Source of the DNA: Pseudanabaena sp. PCC 7367
GTDB lineage: Bacteria > Cyanobacteriota > Cyanobacteriia > Pseudanabaenales > Pseudanabaenaceae
Direction: 5' to 3'
Assembly: GCF_000317065.1 (NCBI RefSeq)
Contig: NC_019701.1
Span: 992,001 to 1,056,000, forward strand
Length of the DNA: 64,000 bases
Shown: piece after piece, positions 42,708 to 48,082 of the stretch
Layout: the number at the start of each line of letters is the position of its first letter
How positions within the stretch are numbered: the stretch's first letter is position 1
Made by a program: the position numbers and the translations under genes
The notes under the pieces: generated by a model
Seen by the model: the letters and a program-made list of their open reading frames with translations, nothing else
The model's database searches: none
What the model was told of the DNA's origin: nothing

Positions 42708-43877
42708 ATGCAATTAGCCGATCGAGTTAGCCAAGTTACCCCCTCTTTGACCCTATCGATCACCGCCAAGGCACTGGCTTTAAAAGCTAAAGGCGTGGAT
42801 GTTTGCAGTTTTAGTGCTGGCGAACCAGACTTCCCCTCTCCGGCTCATGTGGTAGCGGCGGCCAAACAAGCCCTGGATGATGGCAAAACTAAATATGGAC
42901 CAGCGGCGGGGATTCCCAAATTGCGCCAGGCGATCGCCAACAAGCTAGCAGCCGATAATCAACTTAACTTTGCACCGGAGCAAATTATTGTCACCAATGG
43001 CGGCAAGCATTCGCTCTATAACCTGATGATGGCAATGATCAATCCCGGTGATGAGGTGATTATCCCGGTGCCCTATTGGGTCAGCTATCCAGAAATGGTC
43101 AAACTGGCCAGTGGAGTGCCTAAGCTGGTTTATACCGATGAAACCAGTGGCTATAAAATCACGCCAGAGCAACTGGAAGCAGCGATCGGCGATCGTACCA
43201 GACTGTTTGTGCTCAATTCACCTTCTAATCCCACGGGCATGGTCTATACACCCGATGAAATCAGGGGTTTGGCCGCAGTGCTAGAGCGCCACGAACAGGT
43301 CTGGATTGTCTCGGATGAGATTTACGAAAAGATTTTATATGATGGCGCAAAACATCTGAGTCTTGGCGCGGTGAGCCCAGCCATGCACGATCGCACCATT
43401 ATTAGTAGTGGTTTTGCCAAGGCCTATTCTATGACTGGCTGGCGATTGGGCTATCTGGCTGCGCCCAAGGAATTAATCAAGGCTACTACCACCATTCAAG
43501 GTCACAGTACCTCTAATGTCTGTACCTTTGCCCAATATGGCGGCGTGGCGGCACTGACTGGATCGCAAGATTGCGTGGAGGAAATGCGGCAGGCGTTTGC
43601 CCAGCGACGTGAGGTCATGTTTAAACTGCTCAATGCAATCCCTGGGTTTAATTGCCCTAAGCCCGATGGTGCATTTTATATGTTCCCCAGCATCAAAGAA
43701 TTGGGCATCGATTCGCTCAAGTTTTCACAGCAGCTTTTGGAAGCTGAGAATGTGGCCTTGATCCCAGGAATCGCCTTTGGTATGGATAGTAATTTGCGAC
43801 TTTCCTATGCCACTGACCTGGCCACGATCGAAAAGGGCTGCGATCGAATCTTGAAATTTGTTAAGCAATTGACTTAA
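42708..43877 (+). CDS. aspC: Aspartate aminotransferase (class I, subgroup Ib)
   Basis: 389 residues. [56 protein letters not shown] and the PLP-lysine segment [21 protein letters not shown] mark a subgroup Ib aspartate aminotransferase like those of thermophiles and plants (prephenate-type enzymes are close relatives). It transaminates aspartate with 2-oxoglutarate and may also make arogenate from prephenate. The stop codon lies within the first copy of a 13-bp tandem repeat. Confidence 0.93.
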
Positions 43878-43919
43878 TGAATTGACTTAATGAATTGACT
43901 TAATGAATTGACTAAGTGA
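43868..43919. repeat. 13-bp tandem repeat, 4 copies, across a stop codon
   Basis: ATTGACTTAATGA at 43868, 43881 and 43894, then a copy with two changes to 43919. The first copy carries the last codons and the TAA of aspC. Confidence 0.95.
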
Positions 43920-44007
43920 ATGGTTTCATCTGTGTTTCGTCTGTGGTAGGGGCAAAAATGTAAATCTGGTCGCTCCTATTTGTCCCATTCGCCAGATCAT
44001 ATTTTGC

Positions 44008-44500
44008 TTAAAAGGCGGCAGCATCCATTTGAATAAAGGCGAGATGAATAAAGGCGAGATCCGCAGTGCCAGTGGCAATTGCCTGAAGATTTTGCTGTGC
44101 CCCAACCGACTCCTCAACAATTAATTCAATGTGGGCATTGCTTAGCAACTGATTCAGCTCCTGTGCTGCCCAGTAATAACCCAGTAATAGCCCCCTTGTT
44201 TGCTGACAGCCATAGTTCTAAACTTAATTTGGGCAGATACTGGTGTTTTCTGGGCAACTGGGCAATTGGTATGATTGAGTGGGGGCGAATCAGTGGAACA
44301 TCACTCAATAAACTTTGGCTCAATTGAGGGGAATCGATCGCGGCTGGCAAATCAGTAGTTATTTCCGCGTGGTTATTTTGATTGTTTTGGTATTTGAGAT
44401 TGGCATTTACTGGTTGGGTATTAACACCAACTAAGGCTGTAACTATCGATATAACTAACTTCAGAGCAGCTAGTGAGCCTGCTTGAGGTGAAATTATGTT
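44008..44500 (-). pseudogene. Decayed TAXI-family (TRAP-type) solute receptor gene
   Basis: Two overlapping frames on the minus strand join into one protein once small lesions are undone. The first frame (from about 44500) begins with a signal-peptide-like stretch (KLVISIVTALVGV) and reads through LPKLSLELWLSANKG. The second supplies GYYWAAQELNQLL, then VEESVGAQQNLQAIATGTADL, ending MDAAAF at a stop at 44008. The core matches the GGYY, SvGsxxNLxxLxxGxADLAF and Q-x-D-x-A motifs of TAXI receptors. The frame break coincides with an 11-bp tandem duplication (44170-44191) next to a run of five C on the plus strand; a 15-bp in-frame duplication (44031-44060) repeats LAFI. No proper start codon is seen and the second half of the gene is missing. 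It cannot make a functional receptor. Confidence 0.7.
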
Positions 44501-44821: not shown

Positions 44822-47800
44822 ATGTCTGGTCCTGTCAACCAACCTCCAAAGCAAGGTAGTTTGCTTAGTAAAGTACCAATTCGGGTGTTATTAACCGTAC
44901 TTTTTGGGGTTCAGGTTTGTACAGTAGTGGCGATCGTTGGTTTTTTCTCATTTCGGAGCAGCCGTGCCGCTGTAGGTGATGCTACTTCGGAGTTGAGCAG
45001 CGAGACAACAGCCCGGATCAAGCAGAAAATTAGCTACTATCTCGAAACCCCAAATCAAATCAATAGTCTGAATATTAGCGCAGTTGAGCAGGGCTTATTA
45101 AAGCTAGATGACCTAGATAGCATTGAGCGCTATTTTTGGCGACAAATGCAAATCTTTGAGCTGGTTAGTTATGTTTTGATCGCCACTGAGGATGGCAAGT
45201 TTGTGGGTGTACAAAGACAAGACGATGGTACCTTGCAAGTTAAGGTGGCAGATCCCCAAGCCAAACGGGCAATTTTATCTTTTACGCTCGATGAAAATGG
45301 CAATCGACTCAAACGCATCAATGAACAAGCCAACTTTGACCCAACCCAACGTCCCTGGTACATAAATGCCGAAGTGGAGGGGAGCGCTACCTGGAAAGAG
45401 GTAGTCAAGTTCTTTTCAACCGATCAATTAGGAGCAATCTTAGCAGAACCTTTCTATGATCAAGAGGGAAATCTGGCTGGGGTGAGTGCAACTTCGTTGT
45501 TGCTCTCGCAAATCAGTGATTTTCTGCAAGAGTTGAAAATTGGCCGTTCTGGCCAGACTTTTATTATCGATCGGGATGGGGTCTTGATTGCCACTTCCAC
45601 CGATGAAGAATCATTTCTAGAAATAGAAGGTGGCCAGCAAAGACTACCGGCTAGCCAAAGTGGTAATCCTTTAACTAAGGCTACGGCTAATTTTCTGGTT
45701 AGAAAGTTTCCCGATCTCAATCAAATCCAAACCAATCAGCAGGATCAATTTGAACTCGATCGAGCCAGGATCTTACTGGAGATTACACCCTTAACCGATG
45801 GCCAGGGAATCGATTGGCTGATTGTGGTAGTCATGCCCGAAGATGACTTCACCGAGCAGATTCGCAACAATGCCCGCAATACTTTTCTACTGAGCTTAGT
45901 GGCATTGATTGTAGCGATCGGCTTAGCCTTCCTTACTTCTAGATGGATTAGCAAAACAATTTTACGCCTGTCCCGTGCTGCCAAGGCGATCTCCCTCGGT
46001 GATTGGGATCAACAGGTAAGCGAGGATAGCACTTCGATCGAAGCCAGTATGCTGGCCAAGTCATTTAATCAAATGGCAGGACAACTAAAGGCTTCATTTG
46101 CAGAACTAGAGCGGAGTCGTTCTAGCCTGAAAGAAGCCCAAACCCTGGCTCATATTGGTAGTTGGGAATTTGAACTAGAAAGTCAATATATGACCTGGTC
46201 CGATGAACTGTTCAAGATCTGCGGCCTAGAGCCCAGGTATAACCAGATGAGCTATGAACAATACTTGAATGTAGTACATCCTCAGGATCGAGATGCAGTG
46301 GTGCAGGTAATCGATCGCTCGATCGCCACCGGTGATTTTTTCTCCCTCGATCACCGGATCGAACAACCTGATGGTTCGGTGCGCTATGTATATGCCAAGG
46401 GAGAACCAGTTTTTGAAGTACCGGAAGCCCTAGCTGGTCAAGCTGAGCTCAAGCATTCCACTACTTCTTATCACAAAAAATGTATTCCCCTATCGGCCAA
46501 TCCATCATTTCGCGGCAAGGTAATTGGCCTGCTCGGAACTGTTTTGGATATTAGCGATCGTAAAAGTGCAGAACTGGAACTGCAAGAAAGTGAAGCTCGG
46601 TTTCGTACCATTGCCGAAGCTAGCTTTGAAGGGGTGATAATTCACAACAATGGCAAGGTGATTGATTGTAATCAAACCATGGCTCAGATGACCGGCTACG
46701 GCATCACAGAATTGATCGGCATGCAGGTAATCGATCTAGTTACGCCCACCTCTCATCCTACGGTTAAACTTAGCATTGAACTCGATAGTGAGGAGTTATA
46801 TGAGATCGTTGGCCTGCGCAAGGATGGTAGTAAATTTCCAGCCGAGGTGCGAGGGAAGTCGATCCCCTATCATGGTGGCATGGTCAGGATTGCCGCCGTG
46901 CGAGATATCACGGAACGCAAGTTATTTGAACTAGAACAACAGCAGGCCAATGCTTATTTAAATGCGATCATTGATAATCTGGCGGATGGCTTGATTGTGA
47001 CCGATGCCCAAGGTCTGGTGGGAAGAATTAATCCAGCCATGGCGAATATGTTTGAGCTGGAAACCTATGCAGTGGGCAAAAGTTGTGAAGAAGTGCTGGG
47101 TGAGGGCTTGGGGCAGCTTGCTGCTCAGGTACAAAACTCTAGCAGGGAGACATTTACAGCGGAAGTCTCGTTTGGGAATGATCGGATCGCCAAGGCAGTT
47201 GCGACCGGAATTCATGGCCTTAGTCCAGCTAGTGTCACCGCTGATATTGATCTCGACGATAAAGACGAAGATGAAGTAATCGAATCCTGTATTGGTGCTG
47301 TGATTCTAGTCCGGGATGTGACCGAAGAAAGGGAAGTAGAACAACTCAAAATCAATTTTATCTCCAACGTCTCCCACGAAATCCGCACTCCATTTACCAG
47401 TATCTTGGGGTTTGCGAAACTAATCGACAAAAAATTTGCTGAAGTTCTGTTCCCCGTGATTCCTGACGACGATCGCAAGGTGGCCAGAGCTAAAAAGCAA
47501 GTGGGTGAGAATCTGGGAATTATTCTGTCTGAGGGGCAAAGGCTGGGAATTATTATTAATAATGTGGTTGATATTGCCCAAATGGATGCGGGTAAGATTT
47601 GCTGGGAAAAAGAACCGATCGAGATGGGCAATGTGATCAACGAAGCGATCGCCACCACAGCAACTCCCTCAGCCCTGCATGGTTTAGAGTTAAATGTAAA
47701 TATAGCGCCAAACTTACCAACAATAATCGCCGATCGCAAACGAATTCTGCAAGTGTTAAATAATCTGCTATCCAATGGGATTAAATTCACGGAAGTAGGC

Positions 47801-48082
47801 AGCATCACGATCACCGCCACTGCCACAGACAAGGCGATCGAAGTAATTGTGGCCGATACAGGGATTGGCATTTCTAAGCCCCACCAGGCAGCGATCTTCG
47901 AGAAATTCAAGCAGGTGGGAGAAGTATTGACCGATAAACCGCCGGGGACTGGCTTAGGGCTACCTCTTTCCCGTGGCATCATTGAAGGTCATGGCGGTAA
48001 GATTTGGTTTGAAAGCGAATTGGGCAAGGGCACAACCTTCTTCTTTCAACTACCCCTTACCCCCAAAGAGAATACAAATTAG
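44822..48082 (+). CDS. Membrane sensor histidine kinase with three PAS domains
   Basis: 1086 residues. Helix 1 lies near 20-48, followed by a dCache-like extracytoplasmic region (a PWY... segment RPWYINAEVEGSATW is typical), helix 2 near 350-372 and HAMP. Then come PAS (IGSWEFELESQYMTWSDEL), PAS (FRTIAEASFEGVIIHNNGKV), PAS (LNAIIDNLADGLIVTDAQG), HisKA (FISNVSHEIRTPFTSILGF) and HATPase (NNLLSNGIKF, DTGIGIS, GTGLGLPLS). There is no receiver. HisKA shares a 16-residue insertion and a KQVGEN segment with the kinase at 30260, so the two are paralogues. It converges with the PAS-GGDEF-EAL gene, whose product could be under its influence (inference). Confidence 0.92.
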   Translation: MSGPVNQPPKQGSLLSKVPIRVLLTVLFGVQVCTVVAIVGFFSFRSSRAAVGDATSELSSETTARIKQKISYYLETPNQINSLNISAVEQGLLKLDDLDSIERYFWRQMQIFELVSYVLIATEDGKFVGVQRQDDGTLQVKVADPQAKRAILSFTLDENGNRLKRINEQANFDPTQRPWYINAEVEGSATWKEVVKFFSTDQLGAILAEPFYDQEGNLAGVSATSLLLSQISDFLQELKIGRSGQTFIIDRDGVLIATSTDEESFLEIEGGQQRLPASQSGNPLTKATANFLVRKFPDLNQIQTNQQDQFELDRARILLEITPLTDGQGIDWLIVVVMPEDDFTEQIRNNARNTFLLSLVALIVAIGLAFLTSRWISKTILRLSRAAKAISLGDWDQQVSEDSTSIEASMLAKSFNQMAGQLKASFAELERSRSSLKEAQTLAHIGSWEFELESQYMTWSDELFKICGLEPRYNQMSYEQYLNVVHPQDRDAVVQVIDRSIATGDFFSLDHRIEQPDGSVRYVYAKGEPVFEVPEALAGQAELKHSTTSYHKKCIPLSANPSFRGKVIGLLGTVLDISDRKSAELELQESEARFRTIAEASFEGVIIHNNGKVIDCNQTMAQMTGYGITELIGMQVIDLVTPTSHPTVKLSIELDSEELYEIVGLRKDGSKFPAEVRGKSIPYHGGMVRIAAVRDITERKLFELEQQQANAYLNAIIDNLADGLIVTDAQGLVGRINPAMANMFELETYAVGKSCEEVLGEGLGQLAAQVQNSSRETFTAEVSFGNDRIAKAVATGIHGLSPASVTADIDLDDKDEDEVIESCIGAVILVRDVTEEREVEQLKINFISNVSHEIRTPFTSILGFAKLIDKKFAEVLFPVIPDDDRKVARAKKQVGENLGIILSEGQRLGIIINNVVDIAQMDAGKICWEKEPIEMGNVINEAIATTATPSALHGLELNVNIAPNLPTIIADRKRILQVLNNLLSNGIKFTEVGSITITATATDKAIEVIVADTGIGISKPHQAAIFEKFKQVGEVLTDKPPGTGLGLPLSRGIIEGHGGKIWFESELGKGTTFFFQLPLTPKENTN

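Follow-up and report, generated by a model that had tools for sequence, protein, structure and literature searches.

A probable TAXI-type receptor pseudogene and the short tandem duplications of its genome in Pseudanabaena sp. PCC 7367

A 0.9-kb intergenic region of Pseudanabaena sp. PCC 7367 carries, on its minus strand, open frames that resemble a solute receptor but do not add up to one. Does this region hold a broken gene, and, if so, what broke it? A sequence-only reading of 44008-44500 had answered that a TAXI-type receptor gene was killed here by slippage duplications and not by an insertion. The locus is considered below within the window, by which we mean the whole stretch of 64,000 nucleotides analysed (all positions refer to it), and within the genome as a whole. 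The region is bounded by two genes:

42708..43877, plus strand: convergent class I/II aminotransferase gene (PF00155, E 1.4e-78)
44822..48082, plus strand: divergent histidine kinase gene with HAMP and PAS domains

Scanning the window with Rfam and for tRNAs returned nothing. The octamer GCGATCGC, which we take to be HIP1, has 77 copies in the window where 0.96 would be expected, and a neighbour gene in the window matches COP23 (PF14218); the abundance of this octamer and the presence of COP23 are marks of cyanobacteria.

Pieces of the relic and their homology

The two minus-strand frames noticed earlier are present, together with the 11-bp and 15-bp duplications reported for them, all within two bases of the positions first given. 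From the upstream end of the locus to its downstream end, the pieces are:

44402..44500, minus strand: signal-peptide-like stretch, recognised by eye
44192..44236, minus strand: first mature piece (LPKLSLELWLSANKG), which, once joined to the next piece, lines up with the relatives' first mature strand
44011..44181, minus strand: main piece, in another frame (GYYWAAQELNQLL...VEESVGAQQNL...ADLAFI...MDAAAF), matched by PF16868 and by five relatives
44008..44010, minus strand: in-frame TAA inside the relic
43936..44007, minus strand: continuation past the stop (AKYDLANGTNRSDQIYIFAPTTDE), recognised by a gain in alignment score over the five relatives
43880..43924, minus strand: last recognisable piece, 15 residues, after a further frame change, running into a 13-bp array

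Family profiles recognise these pieces at scores under their curated cut-offs, as is expected because the relic is a fragment. The first mature and main pieces, joined with an X for the uncertain residue, are matched by PF16868 at E 5.6e-4 (20 bits, cut-off 27); without the first piece the match is at E 0.0026 (17.9 bits, again below the 27-bit cut-off). TIGR02122 matches a longer read-through at E 0.011 (14.6 bits, cut-off 84.35). When the PF16868 profile was run against the whole genome of the strain, no match was obtained at E <= 0.001, the relic included; it is detected by protein queries only. One such query, L002, is an intact protein of a related genome and an undoubted member of the TAXI family (E 1e-39 to PF16868 and 6.9e-51 to TIGR02122). 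Its best match in the whole 4.9-Mb genome is the relic (window 43879-44178, E 4.2e-5), in an alignment that spans three internal stops, one TAG and two TAA, and the runner-up (E 0.006, residues 100-194) is at another locus, in a frame of 316 residues without a break. The protein L005 matches the window by tblastn at E 4.4e-9.

The relic was aligned with five relatives, all of the 325-residue type (L002, L005, L006, L008, and L009; L003 and L007 are longer). These relatives are 35-42% identical to its main piece and are collinear with the relic over about 95-110 columns, the relic itself being broken by a stop and two changes of frame. It had been expected that relatives would align over both frames, and all five do so; in the longer alignments each of the five leaves a gap of 5 residues where the relic has the 15-bp duplication. 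The frame-disrupting lesions are absent from these five relatives, but no close orthologue was found, so that the lesions are judged against proteins that are only about 29-42% identical. L005 (792-1770, G044), which is among the best-matching relatives, has a frameshift of its own at about residue 216 in L002 numbering; it comes from a draft contig, so that a sequencing error is possible.

Searches with the joined query gave matches in 3 of the 38 genomes of the family at E <= 0.01 and in 6 of the 388 genomes of the class at E <= 1e-4, the strain's own genome being counted in both. The joined query of 72 residues, run against the genome contigs, produced 103 pattern matches and no confirmed relative, and a PDB sequence search with the read-through found nothing at E <= 1. 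In seven loci of TAXI relatives, covering at most about 1.5 kb on each side, the aminotransferase, the kinase, and the FAA hydrolase of the window had no tblastn match at E <= 1e-5.

The extent proposed earlier proved too short at one end: the frames first noticed lie within 44008-44500, but homology runs further, through the stop and a third duplication, to 43880. The stretch past the TAA down to 43922 brings a summed score gain of 76 over the five relatives (23, 12, 31, 6, and 4), a value reached by 3 of 5000 dinucleotide shuffles and by 2 of 5000 random places in the window, the latter possibly including the relic itself. The other two frames past the TAA gain 25 and 8, and the gain of 25 in the wrong frame is not significant (reached in 75 of 1000 shuffles and at 115 of 2000 random places). 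For the last piece the gain is 92, reached by none of 3000 random places and by 4 of 3000 shuffles, a shuffle count that is somewhat favourable since the start of the piece was picked to follow the alignment. The relic then ends, at residue 137 of the 325 of L002. About 100 residues are left and about 188 (about three fifths) are absent, and a search of the genome with L002 found no relic of these missing 188. The relic does not span both lobes of a TAXI binding protein (about 290 mature residues).

At the other end, the signal-like stretch is where it had been described, but its attribution is uncertain, because 55 residues separate it from the mature part here, whereas in the relatives the mature domain follows close behind the N-terminal hydrophobic stretch. 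It lies outside the part covered by the relatives. Between the upstream stop and the end of the stretch there is no in-frame ATG, GTG, or TTG, rarer starts being possible, and the open run around it, 124 codons long, is equalled in 82 of 2000 shuffles, which is not significant.

Could the frames simply be open by chance in an intergenic region of this size? The profile scores under the cut-off and the non-significant upstream run would fit such a reading. It is nevertheless extremely improbable, given the L005 match in the window, the finding that L002 has no better match anywhere in the genome than the relic, and the collinear continuation of homology across the frame changes; for practical purposes, a chance resemblance to TAXI proteins is excluded. 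The PF16868 match, the genome-wide rank of the L002 match, and the five aligned relatives uphold the earlier view of a broken TAXI-type receptor gene. Minus-strand 43880-44236 very probably preserves the front portion of a TAXI-type solute-binding protein gene (PF16868 / TIGR02122), now a pseudogene. It would represent the 5' two fifths of that gene, whose product, judged by homology, was presumably a periplasmic binding protein before the gene died.

Tandem duplications at the locus and in the genome

Five tandem duplications are found in about 400 bp at the relic, three of them within the homologous stretch:

44250..44269: 8-bp tandem duplication, upstream of the first mature piece
44169..44193: 11-bp tandem duplication, 92% match by Tandem Repeats Finder, copies differing at one base; the frame changes here
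44030..44060: 15-bp tandem duplication, in frame, 100% match by Tandem Repeats Finder, copies identical
43923..43945: second 11-bp tandem duplication, copies differing at one base; the frame changes again
43867..43921: 13-bp tandem array of 4.2 copies at the broken end of the relic, overlapping the last codons of the aminotransferase gene

The pieces that flank the duplication at 44169-44193 adjoin in the relatives, the joint being placed by the X in the query, and the loss of one G next to this duplication is compatible with the spacing in the relatives. The 15-bp duplication is probably the youngest, or at least late, because it keeps the reading frame and shows no difference between its copies, whereas the copies of each 11-bp duplication differ at one base; copy identity makes a poor clock. 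Since the 13-bp array spans the aminotransferase stop codon, changes in its length could alter the last residues of that protein.

To place these duplications in the context of the genome, tandem duplications of 8-30 bp were counted, the coding set being defined by a crude longest-ORF rule and not by annotation. The window contains 38 duplications in 18.3 kb of non-coding DNA (2.07 per kb) versus 15 in 45.7 kb of coding DNA (0.33 per kb). Ten shuffles of its non-coding part gave 0-4 duplications, and a different minimum ORF length gave 36 in 16.6 kb. The same pattern is seen in 16 other 20-kb stretches of the genome, with 165 duplications in 71.2 kb of non-coding DNA (2.32 per kb, against 0.08 per kb after shuffling) and 61 in 248.8 kb of coding DNA (0.25 per kb); the rate varies little with the length of the intergenic stretch (2.15-2.63 per kb). 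Most of the duplications are of 8-22 bp and in two copies. In these 16 stretches the period is divisible by three for 42 of the 61 coding duplications versus 51 of the 165 non-coding ones, a coding bias that is expected if selection removes frameshifting duplications. Short duplications look like the usual mark of neutral decay in this genome.

Per kb of non-coding DNA, the strain carries roughly 3-10 times as many duplications as four sampled members of its family, namely G014 (28 in 35.0 kb, 0.80 per kb), G030 (7 in 12.0 kb, 0.59 per kb), G005 (3 in 13.9 kb, 0.22 per kb), and G004 (5 in 5.8 kb, 0.86 per kb). Among genomes of other families of the class, G055 and G082 have 0.27 and 0.16 per kb of non-coding DNA, and G060, with 2.54, is as rich as our strain; 50 kb of E. 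coli gave no duplication in 4.1 kb of non-coding DNA. A several-fold difference in load between related genomes would bear on the growth of bacterial intergenic DNA. Even for this genome the relic is dense: in 435-bp samples from 72 non-coding segments the maximum was four duplications (1.2%), against five at the relic, a place picked after the fact. Background decay alone may therefore not explain all five, and one of them may have acted early in the decay of the relic.

How do the duplications arise? Sampling of the strain's own non-coding DNA yielded 62 perfect duplications of at least 10 bp, of which 4 multi-copy cases were set aside and 58 analysed. Their mean flanking microhomology (capped at 6) is 0.86 bases versus 0.77 expected without preference (P 0.26), with a small tail of 3 duplications having at least 6 bases versus 0.3 expected. 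For periods of at least 9 (n=95), microhomologies of 0, 1, and 2 bases were found 59, 16, and 7 times versus the expected 52.0, 27.1, and 10.6, again with a small long tail. Since the mean is not above expectation, the data do not favour misalignment of short repeats already present as the general source of duplications, though single ones may have originated in this way. The mean is higher in G060, at 1.74. The end-joining protein Ku had no match in any of the seven genomes tested, those with high and low loads alike. Our tentative proposal, possible but short of likely, is that an unusually active process makes short (about 8-22 bp) tandem duplications in this genome, mostly without pre-existing repeats, by which non-coding DNA and dead genes would grow and become scrambled. 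A search of the literature on tandem duplications, pseudogene decay, and Pseudanabaena brought up nothing on point by title, which is not proof of absence in print.

The cause of death

The earlier proposal, that an intact gene was killed by a frame-shifting 11-bp slippage duplication and that the rest followed, draws on several of these results. Both 11-bp duplications sit at frame changes, a few duplications of the genome do have long microhomology, and no large insert is found within the stretch aligned to the relatives, to which extent the words "not an insertion" stand. However, the stop, the missing usual start, and the loss of about three fifths of the gene are each equally able to kill, and such duplications are common in the non-coding DNA of this genome. 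With several potentially lethal lesions in one relic, the killing by slippage duplications is not supported, and their frequency in non-coding DNA, together with the unraised mean microhomology, weakens both the notion of a killer lesion and that of slippage in the narrow sense. We consider this course of events unlikely. A truncation at the outset is a better candidate, possible if somewhat doubtful: a deletion ending at the aminotransferase gene would have taken the 3' part, all other lesions being post-mortem. It would account for the absence of about 188 of 325 residues, of which the genome holds no other trace by L002 search, but its date cannot be fixed, and the 3' part could also have gone late or piecemeal.

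On the sequence of the relic, any of several lesions may have been the first. We infer a loss of selection as the beginning, most of the duplications coming later. In this scheme of decay after lost selection, the TAXI receptor gene would first have ceased to be selected; its 3' part would have vanished where the aminotransferase gene now ends; and the remainder would be decaying in the manner of the non-coding DNA of this genome, by short (about 8-22 bp) tandem duplications and point changes. As a fossil, the relic is of little importance, telling of a bacterium whose TAXI receptor was lost and in which no other gene matches PF16868. Its value is rather that of a worked example of how a dead gene decays in this genome.

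Comparison with known systems

Two kinds of partners are named for TAXI proteins, the TRAP permease in the available part of PMC11574862 and GltS in that of PMC12344293, where the TAXI-GltS system of Bordetella pertussis is described as a TAXI protein working without a TRAP permease. Neither partner was matched in the genome of our strain (G000). The DctM permease (PF06808), by which a TAXI-TRAP system would be recognised, had 0 matches at E <= 0.001, and GltS (PF03616) had no match there nor in 6 of 8 other genomes tested. Across the class, PF16868 is matched in 227 of the 388 genomes and DctM in 160 (E <= 0.001). Within the family DctM is matched in only 2 of 38 genomes, weakly and over half the profile, and TAXI genes without that permease are therefore common in the family. 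Several family genomes (G001-G037) match PF16868 strongly, often in frames about 450 residues long, without a full-length DctM match. At the locus L003, positions 18-1331 encode a 437-residue TAXI-like protein with a PF16868 match and, by eye, a hydrophobic stretch after the binding domain; a gene that by eye is response-regulator-like lies at 1442-2128, divergent from it.

The family TAXI genes in genomes without full-length DctM resemble the TAXI-GltS system of B. pertussis, as far as it is described in the available part of PMC12344293, from which our genome differs by having no GltS match. The likeness of the relic to TAXI-type TRAP binding proteins lies in its N-terminal mature part (YY region, EES.G..NL, ADLAF, and FAP), which can be aligned with members from the same class that are about 325 residues long. 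It differs from them in consisting of about 100 residues with two frame changes and a stop, and its genome differs in matching neither a TRAP permease nor GltS.

Ordinary bacterial pseudogenes decay by small indels. The TAXI relic is one of these, derived from a known family, and it shares with others of its kind the frameshifts, the stop, and the truncation. What sets it apart is that the insertions seen in it are short tandem duplications, of which its genome has many.
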